Shown piece by piece: positions 9,599 to 39,343 of a stretch of 39,343 nucleotides of DNA (within the stretch, counting starts at the first letter, position 1; every line of letters begins with the position of its first letter). The notes under the pieces were generated by a model, which ran no database searches, was not told the origin of the DNA, and saw only the letters and a list, made by a program, of their open reading frames with translations. Source of the stretch: Candidatus Magasanikiibacteriota bacterium. Its GTDB lineage: Bacteria; Patescibacteriota; Patescibacteriia; Magasanikbacterales; UBA922. Where the stretch lies: positions 1-39,343 of the forward strand of contig JAHFIC010000004.1 of the NCBI GenBank assembly GCA_023246555.1. Reading direction: 5' to 3'. Position numbers and translations under genes: made by a program.

Positions 9599-9627
9599 TT
9601 GACCAGCTAAAACGATGGTGCTATAGT
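9599..9627 (+). promoter_or_regulatory. Putative sigma70 promoter for the riboswitch operon
   Basis: TTGACC - 17 nt - TATAGT. Confidence 0.65.
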
Positions 9628-9637
9628 CCCTCTACAA

Positions 9638-9830
9638 TTCAACAACATATTTGTGGAAGTGAGGTGATCCGCCAAAGGCGGACAAGCATTCCTCTACTGT
9701 GCCGCAACGGTAAAGTCCCGATGGAATCGGGAACAAGTCCGGTCTTCAAATATGTTTTACGCCCGAGCAGGTAACGACGCGCTTTGCGTCTTTCTCCATC
9801 TCTACCTGTCCGGCTAGAGTTTTTTTATTT
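9638..9830 (+). ncRNA. Cobalamin riboswitch (candidate) with intrinsic-terminator expression platform
   Basis: GTGAGGTGATCC, ACTGTGCCGCAACGGTAA (matches the conserved cobalamin core CCCGCAACGGTAA) and AAGTCCGGTCTTC (B12-box-like). Closing helix AACATATTT (9644-9652) / AAATATGTT (9748-9756); internal hairpins TCCGCCAAAGGCGGA and TCCCGATGGAATCGGGA. Confidence 0.85.
9767..9828 (+). terminator. Riboswitch terminator
   Basis: GCAGGTA (9767-9773) pairs with TACCTGT (9803-9809), with nested GACGC/GCGTC hairpin, then CGGCTAGAGTTTTTTTATTTT directly before the ATG at 9832. Confidence 0.7.
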
Positions 9831-9831
9831 T

Positions 9832-10377
9832 ATGAAGGAATTTCATGCCAAACACAAGCACCATATTCGTCTGTGGATTCTTCTCGCCCTTCTAACCACG
9901 GTGAGCGGATATGTTGGGTACGGGCGATCATCGACGCCGAAACCAGAAGCCGGAAACCAAAAGTCGGAAATAACCCAGGGAAATGAATCGGTGGTTCAGA
10001 AAACACCAAACGATCAGGAAATTGTCTATACAAGCGTAGACAAACAGACGAAATTTGAGGAAACCACAGAAGCGGTATTTGTTCCGATTACTTTAGTGAT
10101 TGGTGAAGCCGAGTATATCGTACCCACCCCGCCGGACAGCACGGTTTACGCGCTCATGGAGACGGCACAAAGAAGCGGCGTCCTTCAATTTTCCAGTAAA
10201 AACTTCGGCGGCGACTTGGGCTATCTCATCGAAGAAATCAACGGCGTCAAAAATAGCGTCCGAGACAAAAAATATTGGATTTATTATATCAATGGGAAAA
10301 AAGCGGCGGTTGGAGTCTCAAACTACAAACCGCAAACGAACGACACCATCTCGTGGAAGTACGAGGACGAAGAGTGA
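9832..10377 (+). CDS. Membrane-anchored DUF4430 (transcobalamin beta-domain-like) protein
   Basis: Start corrected from 9784 (inside the terminator) to the in-frame ATG at 9832. N-terminal TM/signal, then VPTPPDSTVYALMETAQRSG...FGGDLGYLIEEINGVKNSVRDKKYWIYYINGKKAAVGVSNYKPQTNDTISWKYE, typical of DUF4430. Confidence 0.85.
   Translation: MKEFHAKHKHHIRLWILLALLTTVSGYVGYGRSSTPKPEAGNQKSEITQGNESVVQKTPNDQEIVYTSVDKQTKFEETTEAVFVPITLVIGEAEYIVPTPPDSTVYALMETAQRSGVLQFSSKNFGGDLGYLIEEINGVKNSVRDKKYWIYYINGKKAAVGVSNYKPQTNDTISWKYEDEE
9940..9974. repeat. 7-bp periodic repeat inside the DUF4430 gene
   Basis: AAACCAG|AAGCCGG|AAACCAA|AAGTCGG|AAATAAC. Confidence 0.65.
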
Positions 10378-10411: not shown

Positions 10412-13054
10412 ATGCATCTTCAGGTATATCGTCTTCTATTTATCCTCATTACCTTCCTCGGTGTCTGGAATGCCTCCCCTGCCCTGGCGGCTGATCCTGT
10501 GACTACCCACCTCACGATTCGACATGAAGATGTGATTGTTTTTGACGCCGATGTCTCCACCACAACAGAGGGAGCGACCACGGTTCTCGCAATGCTCCAG
10601 GCCGCGGATGAAGCAAGCGACGACTTTGCAATCACTGACCTGGCGTATTACGCCTCATTCAATGATTATCTCCTAAACTGTATTACATTCGGAAATCCAG
10701 AAACAAACGCCTGTTACAGTTGGAAATATGTGGTGAATGGCGAGTATCCGTTTCTTGGCATTGGCTCATACACGATTTCGGGCGGCGAATCGATTTACCT
10801 CTATTTCGGCGACCGCTATCGACTGGAGACGGAAGCTACAGAAGTGACACCGGATGATCCACTGATTGCCAGATTCTCTGAATACGATTTTGAAGCCAAC
10901 GCCTGGCTTCCCAAAGGTCAGAGTGAACTGCTTGCGACCGAGCCAATCTTACCTGATTATTCCAACTGGCCACCGGCGACCGTGCTCACAACCACAACCG
11001 ACAACGCCGGCGCCGCATCATTTCTTTTTTCCACAACCGGCACCTATTACATCACCATTCCAAATGACTACTGGCCGGGAGTAACCGTGGGGGTGATTGA
11101 CCCACCGGAAGAACCAGCGCCGTCTGTGCGACTCGTCGTGAGATATGGAGAGACATTTCTTTTTGATGAAGAAGTCGTTCTTCCGACCTCCACCGTAATT
11201 TCCTATACTGACTCGGCCACCGGCGCACCGGGAACGACCACCACGCTTCAGACATCCGTTTTGTCGCTCCTTCTCGCGACTGACGCGGCGACGAGTTCGT
11301 TATCGGTCACCCCGCCGGTGTACTACGAACAATTTGGCAGTTTTCTGGTGAATTGCATAAATGACGCGTGTTACAGTTGGAATTATGTCGTAGATGAACA
11401 ATATCCGCAGATTGGCCTGGACCAGTATCGCCTCCTCGGTGGAGAAACAATCTACGTTTATTTCAGCTCGCCGTGGCAGATCACAACGCCGTCCACAACC
11501 GTTGAAGTGGGAGAAGAAGTATCATTCGCCACTTGGCGGTATGAATACGACAATATTGAGGGATCCTGGACGCCTGACCCGAATACCAGTGTACAAATCT
11601 CTGTGCCAAATCCAGCGCCAACGGGATGGTGGGACGCGACAATTCCCGTAGCGACGATCACATCCAATGAGTCTGGTATTGCGACGACAACGTTTTCCGC
11701 GACTGGTACCTTTTCTGCAAGCATTACCTCGGCTGACTTTTCCAAGTGGAGCAGTCCGGTAACGGTGGAAGTGGTTGAGCCGGCCGTCCCACTACCGCCA
11801 GCGAACAATACTCAAAACTCGAACGGTGGTGGAACGAGTGCGCCGCCCGCATTTGACGTGCCGAGAGCCTTAATTTTCATCACCACTCAACAGAATTCAG
11901 ACGGATCGTTTGGCACACCTCTCTATACGGACTGGGCAGGAATCGCCCTTGGCGCCGTTCCCGGAACTTCTGCAGCCGAGGATCGGCTCCGCGCGTATCT
12001 TCTTACCAATCCAGACCCAGGGAGTCTGCTGACTGACATTGAACGCCGCGCTATGGCCCTTATGGCACTGGGTATTAACCCATACACAGGCACACAAACG
12101 AATTATATTGAACGCATTGTGGACAATTTCTCGAATGGTCAATTCGGTGATGTCGGTCTCTTCAACGACGACGTCTTTGCATTTTTTCCACTCATTCGCG
12201 CCGGTGTTTCTCCGAGCGATCCGCGCATCGCGAGCTCAACGGCATTTATTCTTTCTTTTCAGGAACCAAATGGCTCATGGGGAAGTGTTGATATGACTGG
12301 CGCGACGATCCAGGCCTTGGCGCTTGTTCCAGATATCCCCGGTGTTTCCGCTGCCACAGTCCGCGGAGTCGCCTACCTTGAGCAAACCGCAACCGATAAT
12401 GTGTTCTCTGCCGCGTGGAGCAATCAAGGCCTAGCGGCGGCCGGCAGGGCCGTAAATGATGCGCAACTTCTTTCGTTTCAAGAAGCTGATGGTGGCGTTA
12501 CAACAACTCCGCTTACTCCCAACAATCGTGTCTGGGGAACAAGTACCGTGATTCCGGCGGCATTGCATTTGCCATGGGGACAAATCTTGGCTGCTTTCAC
12601 GCCACCAATGCCAGCGGAAACTAATCAACAAGCGGGCGGTAACAACAGCCAGGCAAGTGGTGGTTTTGTGATTCCTCCGCAACCGGAAGAAGTCGCAACT
12701 ACGACCACCACCGGTTTGGAAGAACCGCAAACAGAAACCCCCCTTGCGCCGACAGATATTCAAGAAGGGTCGAATGATTCCACCAATGGAGAAACAGACC
12801 AAACACCGGTGGCATCTCAACCATCAGCCGATCCGACCGCGTCTGCCAATTCATACACGCCACCGCCGACATCCGAAGAAACGCCAGCTACAACGGCAGA
12901 TGAGATCACGGCAACACTCCCCGCTTCCGAAAAAACTGTTCTGTCGCAAAATCCGATTCAGGAAGCGGCCAGAGATGTGTTTGCCGGCTCGGCTAGTATG
13001 ACTGCTGGTCTCGGCCTATATCTCGCTTGGCGATTTCTTAAATTCATCGTATAG
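10412..13054 (+). CDS. Surface protein with two DUF4430-like domains, alpha/alpha-toroid (prenyltransferase/terpenoid-cyclase-like) region and C-terminal TM anchor
   Basis: Start corrected to MHLQVYRLLFILITFLGVWNASPALAADP (signal peptide). ACYSWKYVVNGEYPFLGIGSYTISGGESIYLYF and ACYSWNYVVDEQYPQIGLDQYRLLGGETIYVYF repeats; FITTQQNSDGSFGTPLYTDWAGIALGA and FILSFQEPNGSWGSVDMTGATIQALAL QW-like repeats; Pro/Thr/Glu-rich linker; GLGLYLAWRFLKFIV end. Confidence 0.85.
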   Translation: MHLQVYRLLFILITFLGVWNASPALAADPVTTHLTIRHEDVIVFDADVSTTTEGATTVLAMLQAADEASDDFAITDLAYYASFNDYLLNCITFGNPETNACYSWKYVVNGEYPFLGIGSYTISGGESIYLYFGDRYRLETEATEVTPDDPLIARFSEYDFEANAWLPKGQSELLATEPILPDYSNWPPATVLTTTTDNAGAASFLFSTTGTYYITIPNDYWPGVTVGVIDPPEEPAPSVRLVVRYGETFLFDEEVVLPTSTVISYTDSATGAPGTTTTLQTSVLSLLLATDAATSSLSVTPPVYYEQFGSFLVNCINDACYSWNYVVDEQYPQIGLDQYRLLGGETIYVYFSSPWQITTPSTTVEVGEEVSFATWRYEYDNIEGSWTPDPNTSVQISVPNPAPTGWWDATIPVATITSNESGIATTTFSATGTFSASITSADFSKWSSPVTVEVVEPAVPLPPANNTQNSNGGGTSAPPAFDVPRALIFITTQQNSDGSFGTPLYTDWAGIALGAVPGTSAAEDRLRAYLLTNPDPGSLLTDIERRAMALMALGINPYTGTQTNYIERIVDNFSNGQFGDVGLFNDDVFAFFPLIRAGVSPSDPRIASSTAFILSFQEPNGSWGSVDMTGATIQALALVPDIPGVSAATVRGVAYLEQTATDNVFSAAWSNQGLAAAGRAVNDAQLLSFQEADGGVTTTPLTPNNRVWGTSTVIPAALHLPWGQILAAFTPPMPAETNQQAGGNNSQASGGFVIPPQPEEVATTTTTGLEEPQTETPLAPTDIQEGSNDSTNGETDQTPVASQPSADPTASANSYTPPPTSEETPATTADEITATLPASEKTVLSQNPIQEAARDVFAGSASMTAGLGLYLAWRFLKFIV

Positions 13055-13077: not shown

Positions 13078-13611
13078 ATGCAAAAAAAACTTGACTACAT
13101 CCTCGTGTTCTTCCTCATCGCCCTGGGCGCAACCGCGCGGCTTTTTCCGCATCCGGCAAATGTCGCGCCCATCGGCGCGATCGCCCTCTTCGCCGGACTG
13201 TATCTGCCCCGCCGCCTGTCGCTTATCGTTCCCCTTTTTGCAATGTTTTTGAGCGATCTTGTCATCGGCTTTTACAGTCTGCCAATTATGACGGCGGTTT
13301 ACGGAAGTTTCCTTGTCTCGATCGCCATTGCGCGCATCATGAAAAGAAAAAAAACTATTCCGTTTCTCATCGGTGGTACGACGCTTGGCGCGATTGTCTT
13401 TTTCCTTTTGACCAATGCCGCGGTCTGGGCTTTTGGAACAATGTATTCGCACAGCCTTTCAGGCCTTGCGCACAGCTACAGTAGGGCTATTCCGTTCTTT
13501 CGAAACAGTCTCGTGGGAGATCTCTTTTTTGTCGGTCTTCTTATTGGTGGGTATGAACTCCTAGCCAAACTTCATCGGCGGCGGTTCGTTCACCTCTTCG
13601 AGCGAACCTGA
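13078..13611 (+). CDS. DUF6580-type, ECF S-component-like integral membrane protein
   Basis: ARLFPHPANVAPIGAIALFAGLYLPRRLSLIVPLFAMFLSDLVIGFYS...NSLVGDLFFVGLLIGGYEL; about 5-6 TM segments; 23 bp after the previous gene with no terminator. Confidence 0.75.
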   Translation: MQKKLDYILVFFLIALGATARLFPHPANVAPIGAIALFAGLYLPRRLSLIVPLFAMFLSDLVIGFYSLPIMTAVYGSFLVSIAIARIMKRKKTIPFLIGGTTLGAIVFFLLTNAAVWAFGTMYSHSLSGLAHSYSRAIPFFRNSLVGDLFFVGLLIGGYELLAKLHRRRFVHLFERT

Positions 13612-14952
13612 AATTGGAGCCACCACCCGTTCGATCGGCAGTGTTGCCGGCGGTTCGGCGCGCTTGCCCTCAATTTTCTGCAGGGATGGGGTCTTGATGT
13701 GCGACATGGGAAAATGCCAGATCGTGGCCAATTCTTCAATATTCAAAATAAATGGATTCGCACCCACCTTCATTTTGCGCTTTTTGTAGGCATTCATGAG
13801 GAGCCGTTTACGATAATTCGCGCGCCACACAGCGCCGACATACGACGTGTGCACCCCATACGTTGGCGCCAAAGAATTCGCTGATGGGATATTGAATTGA
13901 TTGATCGCGCCAATGAGCGCCGATACCGCCCGCTGAACTTTAAACACTTCCTTTCGCGCAATATACACGCCGCGCATTTTTGTTTTGAACCCAATCTTTG
14001 AAATTTTTTCTTCGATCCCTTCAACAAGTTTGCTTTCCCCAGGTGTTAAATATTGTATCTTATTGGGCGGACCGCTGTCATCATTGGATTCCGCGTGGGC
14101 ATCTTCCTCACCGCCAAAAATCTGCTGCCCGGCGAATTCCAACACCTTGATTGGTGCGTTAGCCAGCGCTTGGAGTATCTGCGATCCACCATGATGCCCA
14201 TGGCCCGTATCGCCAACAAGTTCTTTCACTTTGGCAATACCCTTCTCCTTCCAGTCATTGCCTGTCGGCTGAACAAGAATTTGGAACCAAAGTTGTTCGC
14301 CGGGGCCAATGCGCGTAAAACTTTCCAAAAATGCCGCCATCGGATCTTTCAATTGCGTATCTTTTGAAATGGTATGTTCAAAGTCCTGATAGGTGCGAAG
14401 CGGGTAGGTGTCGGATTCTGTAAGGGTAAAGTCAGCGCCCCACATGTTGTGCGTTTCATTCGGAAACTGGGTTGGAACACTCGTCACATAATCATCAACT
14501 TCTGTAATTTCCACCTCCGGATATTGAGCGTACACCGCCGCTTCGACCAGATCGCGAAATGTTTCTTCGGTGCGAATAAGAAACTGAATATATCCTTCGA
14601 TGCTGATAATTTCAAAGCTAAAATGCGGTTGTTTATACCCGTGCCAAAACTTTTTTGCGATGTCCTCATGCTCATGCGCTCCTGCCAAGTGCGCAAAAAT
14701 TTGTTCTACGGCTTTTGGTGTCTGCACATTAAGGAGCGGAATATCGACTGCCAGGACTACCCATTTCCAATGGGCGGTATATCGCGATTCTTTCCATTCC
14801 ACCCACATCGCAAGGCCGGCAAAAAAAAGGAGATGGAATAAAATAAGCCAACCACCCATGGCAGTAATTTGAGAAATGATCTCCCACGTCGACTGTTCAG
14901 AAAAAAAACGATTGATTTGATCGACGTCAATGTAGAGCGGCCCAAATTGCAT
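13561..14952 (-). CDS. Conserved membrane protein (DUF8128-like; often seen near type IV secretion-like ATPases in CPR)
   Basis: N-terminal TM (GGWLILFHLLFFAGLAMWVEW) then a long soluble domain (DIPLLNVQTPKAVEQIFAHLAGAHE...). Family assignment is from memory. Confidence 0.6.
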   Translation of the reverse strand: MQFGPLYIDVDQINRFFSEQSTWEIISQITAMGGWLILFHLLFFAGLAMWVEWKESRYTAHWKWVVLAVDIPLLNVQTPKAVEQIFAHLAGAHEHEDIAKKFWHGYKQPHFSFEIISIEGYIQFLIRTEETFRDLVEAAVYAQYPEVEITEVDDYVTSVPTQFPNETHNMWGADFTLTESDTYPLRTYQDFEHTISKDTQLKDPMAAFLESFTRIGPGEQLWFQILVQPTGNDWKEKGIAKVKELVGDTGHGHHGGSQILQALANAPIKVLEFAGQQIFGGEEDAHAESNDDSGPPNKIQYLTPGESKLVEGIEEKISKIGFKTKMRGVYIARKEVFKVQRAVSALIGAINQFNIPSANSLAPTYGVHTSYVGAVWRANYRKRLLMNAYKKRKMKVGANPFILNIEELATIWHFPMSHIKTPSLQKIEGKRAEPPATLPIERVVAPISGSLEEVNEPPPMKFG

Positions 14953-34028: not shown

Positions 34029-34686
34029 CGATCGAGACGATATTCATTCCCCGGGCATCAAATTGCTTTTCCACGACCAGCCCGGCGATCTCGCACCACT
34101 TCGCGATATCTTCCGGCGTATAAGCGTAGTACAGCCGCTCGCCAATCACCGCTCCGCGAGCGTCTTTCCACGGCACTATCATCTCCCGATCAATACTTCC
34201 TAATCTCCATTTTCCCGTTTCTAATTTCTTCTTCGCCCAACCTGAATGCAGATTCCAATTCGTCATGACGAGCATTCCGCGTGGTTTCAATACTCGCCGA
34301 ATCTCGCGAAGAGTTTGTACGCGCTCCTTGTCTGCCGAAAGATGGTGAAACGCCGCTAGGCAAAAAACGATGTCGAACGATTCATCGGGGCAAGGAATCC
34401 GCGTCATCTCGCCCAATCGAACATCAATATCCGGAAAACGCGCTCGCGCCAGCTCGAGCAGGGCTTCGCTAAAATCCACACCGACGTATTCAATATCCTT
34501 GACTGTTCCTTTTTCTACAAATGCCTGGTACAGTCGCGCATTGCCACAGGCCAAATCCAACACCCGACTGTCCGGTTTCGCATACGCGGCGAGGACAAAG
34601 ATCTCCTCTGTTACACGGGATCGCGTTTTTGAAAAACGCTCTCCGATGATATTATAAACATTTTGGTTATTAGAATTGTCTATAAT
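34012..34686 (-). CDS. Class I SAM-dependent methyltransferase (Trm9/ALKBH8-like N-terminus)
   Basis: RVLDLACGNARLYQAF, YVGVDFSEALLELA, FDIVFCLAAFHHL. The reading frame is open upstream of the listed ATG: (I)DNSNNQNVYNIIGERFSKTRSRVTEEIFVLAAYAKPDSRVLDLACG. The 5' boundary is uncertain. Confidence 0.75.
   Translation of the reverse strand: MIDNSNNQNVYNIIGERFSKTRSRVTEEIFVLAAYAKPDSRVLDLACGNARLYQAFVEKGTVKDIEYVGVDFSEALLELARARFPDIDVRLGEMTRIPCPDESFDIVFCLAAFHHLSADKERVQTLREIRRVLKPRGMLVMTNWNLHSGWAKKKLETGKWRLGSIDREMIVPWKDARGAVIGERLYYAYTPEDIAKWCEIAGLVVEKQFDARGMNIVSIATRQS
34197..34228. repeat. 8-bp periodic repeat inside the methyltransferase gene
   Basis: TTCCTAAT|CTCCATTT|TCCCGTTT|CTAATTTC, encoding KKKLETGKWRLGS. 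Confidence 0.6.
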
Positions 34687-37600
34687 ATAAGAGCGAAGAA
34701 CTTAAACAACTGTTTTAATCGGTTGCCTGTCGGAGCGCTTGACGATGAATGACAATCGCTCGGGCATGAGCCGGTTGATTCTCCATAATCGCATGTGCCG
34801 TTGCCATTGCAGGCGGTCCAACTGCCGCTTCCGCCGCAGTCAGATGGACAAGAACTATAAGACTCATTGGATTCGCAAGCGCCGTTGTTGTTGCAGGAAC
34901 TACTGCCGCCGCCGCAGTCAGATGGACAAGCTGAGTATGATTCGTTTGAGTCGCAGACGTTGTTGTAGTTGCATCCTGACGATCCGCAATCGCTTGGACA
35001 CGAACCAGTTGATTCTCCATAATCGCATGTGCCGTTGCCATTGCAGGCGGTATTCCCGCTTCCCGCGCAGTCCGATGGGCAGGATGTTGTCGACTCATTT
35101 GAATCACAAACACGATTGTTGTTGCAGTTCGCTGTGGTGCTACCACTGCTCGCGCACCCGCTAGGACAACCATTATTATCATAGGTGCACCATTGCGTTG
35201 TGGATCCGGGCGCAGGACATGCGCTACAAGCATTTGGGTTACTGCACGTCACGCTGTTTTTCACACATGAATTGGTGGTACTGTTCCATGTCCAGTCTGG
35301 ACCGCAGGAGGAGCTTGTTCCGCCACCGCCGCTTGAAGCGCAAGGCGCGCTTGAACTATTAGAATAACAGGCCGAGGTCGAGTCGCACCACGTGAAGTTA
35401 TGCGCCTCGCAAGTGGAGCGAGAAGTGCATTTTACCGGCATGGCCGAACAGGAGCTTGAACTGCAATCATTCGGACATCCGGTTCCCGTTTCACCGCTAT
35501 CGCAGATCCCGTCGTTATCGCACTTAGGCGCGCAGTCAGTGACACACGATGTGACGGTTTCTCCGCTATCGCAGATGTTATTCCCGCAATATCCGCCGAC
35601 AGTTGTTTGGCACGAAACCGGACAGCCATCGCCAGTCCACTGGCACCATTTTGTCGCGCTCGATGTGCGGCATGCGTCACACGCCTTTGGCGCTGAACAC
35701 ACAACTCCATCGCGCACGCAGGACCGCGCTTCAAGATCATAGTGCCAGCCGCTCCCGCCGCAATAGGTTGTTGTGTCTGATGAGCAATCAGACGGACAGG
35801 AAGCGATGGTTTCATTGCTATCGCAGGTGCCATTCTTATTGCAAGTCGTCCCCGAGCACGCGGCGCTTTGGCAGGCGCCGTTGCACCAGTAAAACCCATG
35901 TGAAGTGCAGTCAACCTGGGTCGTACAGGCCGATGGGGTCGCGGTGCAAAAAGATGTTATTGTACCCGTACAATCATAAGGACATTTGGTTGAAGTTTCT
36001 CCCGGATCGCACACCGCGTTTCCGCAGAACGCTCCGCCGTCTTTGCAGGCTGACGCCGAACAACTATTGCCGCACCAGTATGAACCGCGGCCGATACATC
36101 CGGTCTTTGTTCTACAGTAATATGGGCTGCCATTACAAAGCGGATCTTCTCCCGGGGCGCAGTCTTGAAGACAAGATTCTGTAGTTTCTCGTCCGTTGCA
36201 AGCGCCATCACCGCACCACGGCGTCGCCGGGCATTCAGACGGACAAATGGTTGATGTTTCGGATCCGCCACAGACACCATCCCCATTGCACACAGTGGTA
36301 GAACCGCAATCTGAAGGACAGGAGCCGGAAGATTCTCCGTACTCGCAACTGCCGTCGTTGTCACAAGCCGTAGTTCCGCCGCAGTCAGAGCGGCAAGAAT
36401 CATAGGTTTCATTTGATTCGCAAACGCCGTTGCTATTGCAAACAAGCGCCACGGTATCGCAATCGGACGGGCAACTTTCTGCGGTTTCACTGCTATCGCA
36501 GATATTGTTGCCGCAGATTGGCGTTATGGGTTGTTCATCCGGAACACACGATCCATAAATACTGCAACCCTGCTGATCGATTGTGATGTCACGATGCATC
36601 GCGCTAGGGCATGGACTTGGCCGCGTCGGACAAGCAATCGGCTTTGGCTCTGGCGGCAAAACACATGACCAATCAGCGCACGGATTTTTTCTCTTATCAG
36701 GAGGCAATGGCGCTTCTCCCGGCGCGCATATTCTTGGCATCACTGCCGGACAAATCGGCGACTGACATTCGGAATAAATGGTACAGCCGTTTTGATCAAC
36801 GCTTTCGCTTCTAAATAGTCCGACCTGACAATCAACTGGTTTCGCCGGACAGCGATTTTTTTCTATCGGAATACATCCGCCCGGAACCCAGCAGCCATCG
36901 ACTTTTTGTTTCGTCTCGCGGTATTCTCCATTCGGACAGGAAAGATACGAAGTTATCGGACAAATCCGAGTATCAAAAGAAGCACAAGAACGCGACCCTT
37001 CATCCCAAAATTGGCCATGTCCACAACCCCGCCGATTATCCTTTTCACAACGTCTCAAGAGATAATCATAGTAAAATCCTTCTTCGCACGAAGCAATGTT
37101 CGTTGGCACGCAATCTCGCTTCCCGCTATCCCAGAAAAACCCGCTTGAACAAACTTGCGCAACATTAGTCGTACAATCCTGCGGATAGGAAATGGTCCCA
37201 TTTGAACCAATGGTTGGTTTACAGTTTTCTGTCTCATTTGTTTTTCGACAAATCCCTTGCCCGCCATCCCAATAAAATCCGGTGCCACAGGCAATAAACC
37301 TCTCTGGGGGCTTAAAGAATGGATCTGTCAGGCAATTTTTTCCATCCCAATATGTGCCAACGGCACAGGATTGCTGAACCGATGTTTCGGTCGTTGATAC
37401 GCATCGCGCCTGTCCAGCATCCCAGAAAAAACCTGGGGCACAGGCAACCGGCTGTAATGCCACAGTGATCCACTGGCACTCTGGCACTTTCTGGTTTTTA
37501 CGACAATAAGTCTCACATGATTCTGAGGTGTTGCACCTCGCCGCAAGCGGATTATCCAGCTCATATCGCGCTTTTTCCAATTCAATATTTTTACGCTCGC

Positions 37601-39343
37601 GTTCCAAATCATCGCCCATGACCTCGCGCTGATGGCGCAGTTCCTGATCCAAAAACTGAGTCTGGATCGACTGACAGGTCTTGTCACAGCCAAATGGATC
37701 AAGACTCAATCTGGCCTCAAACAGGCGCTTTTGTTCGGCATAGCGCTCATTGAGACGGGCATACGAGTCCTGGATTTTTTCTTCCCACAACTGTTTTCTG
37801 GTATCAAAATTATCCCACTTTGTCTCATTCAATTTTCGGAAAAACTCATCATTTTCCTGCCGTTCAACCCGATCTGTTTGATGCCGCAGTTCTCGCTCTT
37901 CATAATCAATTTGGGAACGGGCAATCTGGCGTGATCGCTCTTCCTCCAGCCGCTGTTGTTCGATTTTTCTCCATTTGAACTGCAAAGCGTTTTGAAACTC
38001 CGGATCATAGGCCTTGATACTGTCGATCGCAACCTGTGGAGCTGAAACGAAGCGCTCGTACACCCGATCAAACTCTTCCGGCCGCTCGGCATCGCGAACA
38101 TAGGTCGCGAGCTTATCAATCTTTTGCTTGACAATGGCGGATTTCACCTCCGGGCTGATTTCGATCGCTTCAATCGAAGCAATGTCCTGCGGATCGAGCG
38201 AGGCATAGCGCTCGGCAAATCGCTCGCCCTCGCGGCGATACCGCGCCTCGACTTCGCCTGTCATTTGATTTTCTAGAGACTCCAGGAAGCCGCTTTTTTC
38301 CGGGTCGCCCTGCACCTCTTGTTCGAGTTCACGCAAAAGTGCAAATGTTTTAGGAGTCGGATTTTCGATCATTTTTCGCGACAATGCGGTAAACAGTTCT
38401 GCTTGATTTTGCGAGGTCGCGTCAGTAAAACGCGCCTTAAACGCGGTCACGGCCTTTTCATGGGCATCCGCCAAATCTTTTGCCACGACACTTCCCTGCG
38501 TCAAGCGATTGCGAAAATCTTCGAGGGCAATAACTTGTCCGGCATCGGACAAATCACGATGTTCAATAAGAGACGCTTTCACGACCGGATCCTGTATCTG
38601 TTCGAACTTGCGTTCAAATTTTTTCGAAACCAACTCTTTCGCCTCCTCGAGCTTCTCGAGCACGTCTGATGGCACATTGGACGTATTCTTGATATCTTCA
38701 AGAAGCGTAAACAACCGTATGTCATCGCCTGGAGAAAACTCCACATACCGCTTCAATTGCTCCGCCCTCACTATTGGCGGCAAATTTTTCACCCGCATCT
38801 CGAACTGCTCGACAGTATTTTTCTTCGCTAGTGCCACCGCCTCTTTGATATTGTCCGGCGCGACGTCGCTCATTGACGTGAGAATAACCAAGTGGCGCAG
38901 ATCTCGAAGGTCAGATCCGGTTTGCTTTTTAAGCGCCTGTGTGAGCCGCTCACTCGCCGCCTCGGGAGTAGGGTCCACCATACCGAGCACGTTCACGAAA
39001 TTTTCGGTCATTTTGCTTTTGTTTTCATTGATCACAGTGACAAGCTGTTCGGTTTCTTTCGATACGGTCTCACCTTCGCCTTCAGCCACGAAAGCGGCTG
39101 CTGTGATCACTGTCTCCTGAAGCGTATCAAGAATTTTTTGTTCTTTAATATGCTTATCAGCAAAGTTATCCATGAGGGCCGCGACAGCTTCTGGATCTTC
39201 TTCCCGCTCTTTGCTCAAGTCAGCCGCCGCACTGCTTACATCAGAAAGTCGCCCCTCAGAGCGCTCAATCGCAGCCGCAATCACATCGGCGTCCACGGCG
39301 CTAACACCCTTCTCGTCCACAAGCTGTTTCACTTCCCACAGCT
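34680..39343 (-). CDS. Giant secreted/surface Cys-rich repeat protein, partial (5' end outside window)
   Basis: N-terminal alpha-helical/coiled-coil region (about 600 aa), then several Cys repeat families including 14 copies of C-x(2-3)-[DN]-x-x-C-x(3)-E[TS]-x(3)-C-x(2)-[DE]-C. The frame stays open past the GTG at 39332 to the window edge (LWEVKQLVDEKG). Confidence 0.9.
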   Translation of the reverse strand, partial: LWEVKQLVDEKGVSAVDADVIAAAIERSEGRLSDVSSAAADLSKEREEDPEAVAALMDNFADKHIKEQKILDTLQETVITAAAFVAEGEGETVSKETEQLVTVINENKSKMTENFVNVLGMVDPTPEAASERLTQALKKQTGSDLRDLRHLVILTSMSDVAPDNIKEAVALAKKNTVEQFEMRVKNLPPIVRAEQLKRYVEFSPGDDIRLFTLLEDIKNTSNVPSDVLEKLEEAKELVSKKFERKFEQIQDPVVKASLIEHRDLSDAGQVIALEDFRNRLTQGSVVAKDLADAHEKAVTAFKARFTDATSQNQAELFTALSRKMIENPTPKTFALLRELEQEVQGDPEKSGFLESLENQMTGEVEARYRREGERFAERYASLDPQDIASIEAIEISPEVKSAIVKQKIDKLATYVRDAERPEEFDRVYERFVSAPQVAIDSIKAYDPEFQNALQFKWRKIEQQRLEEERSRQIARSQIDYEERELRHQTDRVERQENDEFFRKLNETKWDNFDTRKQLWEEKIQDSYARLNERYAEQKRLFEARLSLDPFGCDKTCQSIQTQFLDQELRHQREVMGDDLERERKNIELEKARYELDNPLAARCNTSESCETYCRKNQKVPECQWITVALQPVACAPGFFWDAGQARCVSTTETSVQQSCAVGTYWDGKNCLTDPFFKPPERFIACGTGFYWDGGQGICRKTNETENCKPTIGSNGTISYPQDCTTNVAQVCSSGFFWDSGKRDCVPTNIASCEEGFYYDYLLRRCEKDNRRGCGHGQFWDEGSRSCASFDTRICPITSYLSCPNGEYRETKQKVDGCWVPGGCIPIEKNRCPAKPVDCQVGLFRSESVDQNGCTIYSECQSPICPAVMPRICAPGEAPLPPDKRKNPCADWSCVLPPEPKPIACPTRPSPCPSAMHRDITIDQQGCSIYGSCVPDEQPITPICGNNICDSSETAESCPSDCDTVALVCNSNGVCESNETYDSCRSDCGGTTACDNDGSCEYGESSGSCPSDCGSTTVCNGDGVCGGSETSTICPSECPATPWCGDGACNGRETTESCLQDCAPGEDPLCNGSPYYCRTKTGCIGRGSYWCGNSCSASACKDGGAFCGNAVCDPGETSTKCPYDCTGTITSFCTATPSACTTQVDCTSHGFYWCNGACQSAACSGTTCNKNGTCDSNETIASCPSDCSSDTTTYCGGSGWHYDLEARSCVRDGVVCSAPKACDACRTSSATKWCQWTGDGCPVSCQTTVGGYCGNNICDSGETVTSCVTDCAPKCDNDGICDSGETGTGCPNDCSSSSCSAMPVKCTSRSTCEAHNFTWCDSTSACYSNSSSAPCASSGGGGTSSSCGPDWTWNSTTNSCVKNSVTCSNPNACSACPAPGSTTQWCTYDNNGCPSGCASSGSTTANCNNNRVCDSNESTTSCPSDCAGSGNTACNGNGTCDYGESTGSCPSDCGSSGCNYNNVCDSNESYSACPSDCGGGSSSCNNNGACESNESYSSCPSDCGGSGSWTACNGNGTCDYGESTGSCPSDCHSSSSAPTGNRLKQLFKFFALIL

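Follow-up and report, generated by a model that had tools for sequence, protein, structure and literature searches.

A predicted cobalamin-capture protein with DUF4430 and alpha/alpha-toroid domains in a riboswitch-headed operon of Candidatus Magasanikiibacteriota

The B12 carriers of animals (intrinsic factor, transcobalamin and haptocorrin) share a 12-helix alpha/alpha barrel and a DUF4430-type beta domain, the latter being their C-terminal domain (PMC4350170). Among bacterial importers, ECF-CbrT of Lactobacillus delbrueckii (structure 6FNP) is a proven B12 transporter with its gene in the cluster nrdJ-cbrS-cbrT-pduO, and solitary CbrT is unable to support growth in E. coli (PMC5997447). BtuM of Thiobacillus denitrificans acts alone, and B12 uptake through it needs no ECF module (PMC6072759). 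With BtuG/BtuB of Bacteroides (PMC6143338, PMC10404256) the operon described here would share the principle of catching B12 at the cell surface before it is transported. Unlike this operon, BtuG/BtuB constitute an outer-membrane TonB-dependent system. The folds of BtuG and BtuB also differ from those of DUF4430/toroid proteins. In Lactobacillales, DUF4430 proteins likewise occur beside a B12-dependent ribonucleotide reductase (RNR) or EcfT-EcfA-S genes, with a single DUF4430 and no toroid in the examples seen: the L. rhamnosus gene LGG_02295 lies beside rtpR (PMC9963975), a DUF4430 gene adjoins a B12-dependent RNR on an E. gallinarum plasmid, and on plasmids of Lactobacillales DUF4430 adjoins EcfT-EcfA-S genes. 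The link between DUF4430 and B12 is therefore visible elsewhere too, and is uncharacterised in the open-access literature searched, in which we found no function for bacterial DUF4430 and nothing on B12 in Magasanikbacteria.

We analysed a window of 39,343 nucleotides (GCA_023246555.1, contig JAHFIC010000004.1) from a Candidatus Magasanikiibacteriota bacterium, which belongs to a type of tiny bacteria and is probably host-dependent. Its 880-aa protein is most likely the subunit that captures cobalamin at the cell surface for an uptake system of this Ca. Magasanikbacteria-type Patescibacterium. The protein is encoded by the middle gene of a three-gene operon on the forward strand. Gene 1 (9832-10377) encodes a 181-aa, N-terminally anchored protein with a single DUF4430 (Pfam E-value 1.4e-14; 54.7 bits against a cut-off of 23.8, and 56.4 bits in a genome-wide domain search); gene 2 (10412-13054) follows after 34 bases; and gene 3 (13078-13611), another 23 bases downstream, encodes a DUF6580 membrane protein (PF20221, 3e-45) that is a candidate B12 permease. 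The triad of short DUF4430 protein, toroid protein and DUF6580 recurs in relatives with the same families in the same order, including Ca. Magasanikbacteria, Nomurabacteria, Kaiserbacteria and other Parcubacteria-type lineages. In the genome_contigs set searched with BLAST, all three genes were present within the stretch examined at 21 of 80 loci.

Many Nomurabacteria loci show two DUF4430 genes alone within that stretch; at L183, L184, L188, L193 and similar loci both are present and no DUF6580 lies within the 5-kb flank, so that the permease may be elsewhere or come from another family. A metagenome-assembled genome labelled Actinomycetes (L236, JAJRWQ010000095.1) carries the full triad, by lateral transfer or mis-binning. 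Within the window, the reverse-strand gene at 13561-14952 encodes a 463-aa protein without a Pfam match that is about 50-56% identical in many relatives, where it is syntenic, convergent to DUF6580 and beside SecF. Farther downstream, a 1550-aa protein (34680-39332, reverse strand) bears, in its C-terminal part, an extended series of Cys-rich repeats (C-NNG-CD--E----CPSDC type), closes with a hydrophobic tail, and is probably a surface protein.

The 880-aa protein begins with a signal peptide (residues 1-26, 10412-10489) ending in an ALA-A site at residue 26. It continues with DUF4430-1 (residues 28-134, 10493-10813; Pfam, genome domain search and AlphaFold2), a beta-sandwich spacer modelled at low confidence (about residues 138-229, 10823-11098), DUF4430-2 (residues 238-355, 11123-11476; domain search, AlphaFold2 and alignment), which contains the invariant W323, and a second modelled beta-sandwich spacer (about residues 356-455, 11477-11776). 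An alpha/alpha toroid of 12 helices (residues 483-735, 11858-12616; profile, Pfam and AlphaFold2) is followed by a P/T/E-rich stalk (residues 736-855, 12617-12976) and a C-terminal transmembrane helix (residues 857-880, 12980-13051), the last two read from the sequence. Each DUF4430 has its own Cys pair (90/101 and 315/320). Pfam detects DUF4430 (PF14478) at 5.6e-9 and 36.8 bits (gathering cut-off 23.8), and the genome-wide domain search separates two sites within gene 2, at 27.8 and 17.5 bits; with the one in gene 1, these are the only three DUF4430 domains in the 770-kb genome. The initial annotation had described two DUF4430-like domains before a toroid, a stalk and a terminal membrane helix, and sequence, Pfam and the structural model all confirm this layout.

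The toroid was recognised through family profiles, which were needed because the single 880-aa sequence found no match in the PDB with phmmer. A profile of 20 family members matches squalene-hopene cyclase (1gsz) at 7.9e-17, and SQHop_cyclase_C is found in 42 of 44 family members. The QW-like motifs on which the toroid had originally been proposed, QNSDGSFG and QEPNGSWG, are present at residues 494 and 617; across the 44 members, W508 is conserved in 43 and NDD 585-587, Q617, D627, T629 and W669 are invariant. PF01122, 'Eukaryotic cobalamin-binding protein', matches 16 of the 44 toroid proteins at E<0.01 and reaches its curated cut-off in one (25.4 against 25); Pfam did not detect it in the window protein itself. 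AlphaFold2, run with a 44-sequence alignment from the window and public loci, gave a mean pLDDT of 83.9, mostly above 90 in DUF4430-2 and the toroid. The 12 toroid helices (residues ~483-717, where pLDDT exceeds 90 for the most part) fold as had been predicted, and a beta-sandwich follows each DUF4430. With a pTM of 0.47, the model is reliable for folds and unreliable for domain placement, including how toroid and DUF4430 lie relative to each other.

The closest architectural parallel is transcobalamin, in which the alpha domain precedes the beta domain; in the window protein beta precedes alpha, with two DUF4430 domains first. Unlike transcobalamin, the window protein is bacterial, membrane-anchored and interrupted by beta-sandwich spacers, has no Cys in its toroid, and has a predicted cobalamin ligand. 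A profile of the short-DUF4430 family matches gastric intrinsic factor (2pmv, 1e-6) and transcobalamin-1 (4kki, 2.4e-4), consistent with the presence of DUF4430 in the animal carriers. The 880-aa protein likely works like transcobalamin; because the order is reversed and ligand binding is predicted, we do not claim membership of that family.

The reversed order, proposed at the outset as a permutation, holds for the window protein and is not universal among its relatives. In proteins fetched from two partly overlapping collections, with orders confirmed by Pfam, 77 have DUF4430 then toroid, 15 have the toroid first as in animals, and 27 have a toroid without a detected DUF4430. Several toroid-first genes (for example in G190, G154 and G096) lie directly behind AdoCbl riboswitches, and in a toroid tree, whose deep support is weak, the toroid-first proteins fall largely on one side (5 changes versus 14.2 when shuffled). 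Together these observations indicate that the permutation follows lineage while the functional slot stays the same. In five genomes (G113, G127, G119, G168 and G189) a minimal form consists of riboswitch, DUF4430 and DUF6580 and has no toroid, which suggests that the toroid was added as a capture module. A Collinsella protein of 1264 aa (L256:3645-7439) has four DUF4430 domains and lies beside a second DUF4430 gene.

An AdoCbl (cobalamin) riboswitch heads the DUF4430/toroid/DUF6580 operon. An Rfam scan of the window at default thresholds gave no match, and a permissive scan placed RF01482 at 9629-9792 (37.1 bits, E-value 3.6e-5, below the gathering threshold of 50); the genome's one match to RF00174 is the same aptamer, also sub-threshold (E-value 0.097). 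A model, R1, built from the aptamers of 15 relatives with the window excluded, finds 9629-9763 on the forward strand as its sole match in the window at 100.5 bits (E-value 3.7e-25, a rough estimate). Both sides change in 20 of 28 pairs, a covariation signal that is lost when the structure is slid, and relatives have cobalamin-clan matches (Rfam CL00101) at the same place, several passing 50 bits. Directly before the aptamer lies a sigma-70-like promoter (9599-9627, forward strand; TTGACC-17-TATAGT with TG), weak evidence in a consensus scan that found 1 against 1.4 expected by chance, though correctly placed. A GC hairpin (9761-9814) followed by a T-run makes 9761-9827 of the same strand a possible expression platform (minimum free energy z-score -2.26); a formal terminator scan of this region found none, the hairpin loop being too long. 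Across 192 related Patescibacteria genomes there are 69 AdoCbl-riboswitch matches; the next labelled gene is DUF4430, toroid or DUF6580 for 58 of them, and 57 of those 58 have the gene start within 800 bp. One relative (L302, G026:C10:716-4461) has a class I RNR and no DUF6580; there a cobalamin riboswitch stands before genes for CobT, a protein resembling BtuF, BtuC (FecCD 5.5e-92) and an ABC ATPase, so that the B12 importer in this regulatory position is of the classical type. The contig measures 7.5 kb and contamination is possible.

The third gene points to a membrane partner with a predicted S-component fold resembling BtuM and CbrT. A DUF6580 profile of 25 members has one PDB match only, 6fnp_A (E-value 0.0017), which from its chain length and name would be the CbrT subunit; at the level tested it has no sequence match to BtuM in the PDB. 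The AlphaFold2 model of DUF6580 (pLDDT 91.8) has BtuM with cyano- and hydroxocobalamin (8c7p/8ovv) as its best Foldseek match over the PDB, with probability 1.00 and TM 0.69-0.70, at E-values for BtuM of 0.05-0.15 in a search whose best was 0.046 and in which none fell under 0.001. The next plausible matches are other S components (RibU, FolT and ThiT). BtuM has an essential Cys as cobalt ligand, whereas the window DUF6580 has no Cys and has instead a near-invariant His25 (24/25 and 26/26), which we speculate to be a candidate cobalt ligand. No DUF6580 was found in plasmids.

Many Patescibacteria depend on a B12-dependent RNR, yet EcfT was found in 0 of the 192 genomes, and FecCD/BtuC was found neither in the genome studied here nor in 183 of the 192 relatives. 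Given the lack of EcfT in relatives, a DUF6580 permease would have to work without an ECF module, as BtuM does. DUF6580 is present in 93 of the 192 genomes. As these genomes are related and are not independent samples, p-values overstate independence; with this limit, DUF6580 goes with NrdJ over the cut-off (79 genomes with both, 14 with DUF6580 alone, 28 with NrdJ alone and 71 with neither; p 7e-16), correlates with the PduO adenosyltransferase (p 2.5e-10) and the riboswitch (p 1e-19), and tends to be absent where class I NrdB is present (p 1.5e-10). In 25 cases in these genomes a DUF6580 gene and NrdJ are no more than 6 kb apart, always sharing a strand, and the DUF6580-NrdJ pattern repeats across many families. 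As in the CbrT cluster, an S-component-type B12 permease homologue is linked to NrdJ and, in many relatives, accompanied by PduO; unlike that cluster, the operons of this type have toroid capture proteins and an AdoCbl riboswitch, and lack EcfT in the 192 relatives. The genome studied here (94.7% complete, 770 kb) has NrdJ over the cut-off, and we found no NrdB, no EcfT and no B12-binding-domain enzyme in it; PF02310, CobA and PduO are all without a match, and no adenosyltransferase was found at this completeness. Three genomes (G004, G056 and G059, with loci L055, L045 and L054) have the triad and no NrdJ match at 1e-20; a different B12-dependent enzyme, a diverged RNR or gaps in the assembly may explain this.

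We propose that when B12 is scarce and internal AdoCbl low, the riboswitch would be freed and the operon expressed. The tethered 880-aa protein would then display two DUF4430 domains and the toroid outside the cell and bind cobalamin, perhaps with toroid and DUF4430 clamping one ligand, while the short anchored DUF4430 protein would also bind cobalamin outside, so that its concentration at the surface would rise. Both capture proteins would hand cobalamin to DUF6580, a putative solitary S-component-like permease and presumed kin of CbrT and BtuM, which would transport it inwards with no help from an ECF ATPase module and probably by toppling, the movement put forward for BtuM and for the S components of ECF transporters. 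Inside, cobalamin would serve the B12-dependent RNR NrdJ, with adenosylation or NrdJ binding as candidate means of trapping it. The riboswitch, the homology of the short DUF4430 protein to intrinsic factor and transcobalamin, the DUF6580 partner and the co-occurrence with NrdJ thus support the cell-surface, transcobalamin-like ligand trap suggested in the initial annotation, with cobalamin as the predicted ligand. A bolder version, which we put forward tentatively and which could well be wrong, is that the DUF4430/toroid fusions of Patescibacteria are true bacterial transcobalamins that clamp cobalamin between their domains like the animal carriers, in both orders, and feed DUF6580 as a new class of stand-alone S-component B12 permease, in which His25 may be the cobalt ligand.

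The same mechanism might act on another corrinoid or precursor (cobinamide, another cobamide or alpha-ribazole) in place of cobalamin. Cobalamin riboswitches sense corrinoid cofactors of several kinds (PMC9600662), CbrT carries cobinamide too (PMC5997447), and the missing adenosyltransferase in the genome studied here fits as well; but NrdJ needs a complete cobamide, and CobT, a late remodelling enzyme, appears in one relative only, on a small contig, which makes this ligand assignment unlikely. That the 880-aa protein is a generic surface or adhesion protein, with a decorative cyclase-type toroid and a coincidental B12 riboswitch, is very improbable, since the linkage to riboswitch, NrdJ and DUF6580 across many families goes far past coincidence, even though its P/T/E stalk and the occurrence of DUF4430 in varied surface proteins, such as that of Collinsella, would suit such a role.

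Two further readings arise from what the toroid resembles. Its best sequence homology, to squalene-hopene and drimenyl cyclases, and its invariant NDD motif could indicate a secreted class II terpene-cyclase-type enzyme, but the catalytic DXDD motif of squalene-hopene cyclase is absent from the 880-aa protein, the single short barrel is fused to DUF4430 and extracellular, with no substrate there, and the riboswitch context does not fit; we regard such an enzyme as extremely unlikely. Searched with Foldseek, the multidomain model has complement/TEP proteins and cyclases as its top 50 matches, with no transcobalamin among them, and TED domain matches occur in 14 of 44 family members, as an alpha-2-macroglobulin or thioester-type protein would have it. 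These matches cover beta-sandwiches and toroid only, with TM below 0.3, and the protein has neither the GCGEQ thioester motif of complement/A2M nor any Cys in the toroid, so the chance of a thioester protein is close to negligible. With thioester and DXDD motifs missing, we rejected the Foldseek identity as complement/TEP or cyclase, and we retain cobalamin capture at the cell surface as the preferred reading.

The operon offers a directly testable answer to the question of how Patescibacteria acquire B12, and supplies a predicted function for DUF6580 and for bacterial DUF4430. Bacteria too have the two-module architecture known from animal B12 carriers, placed behind a B12 riboswitch and occurring in both domain orders, which bears on the origin of intrinsic factor and transcobalamin; if DUF4430/toroid fusions do prove to be true transcobalamins, those of Patescibacteria or other bacteria would bear on where the animal B12 carriers came from.
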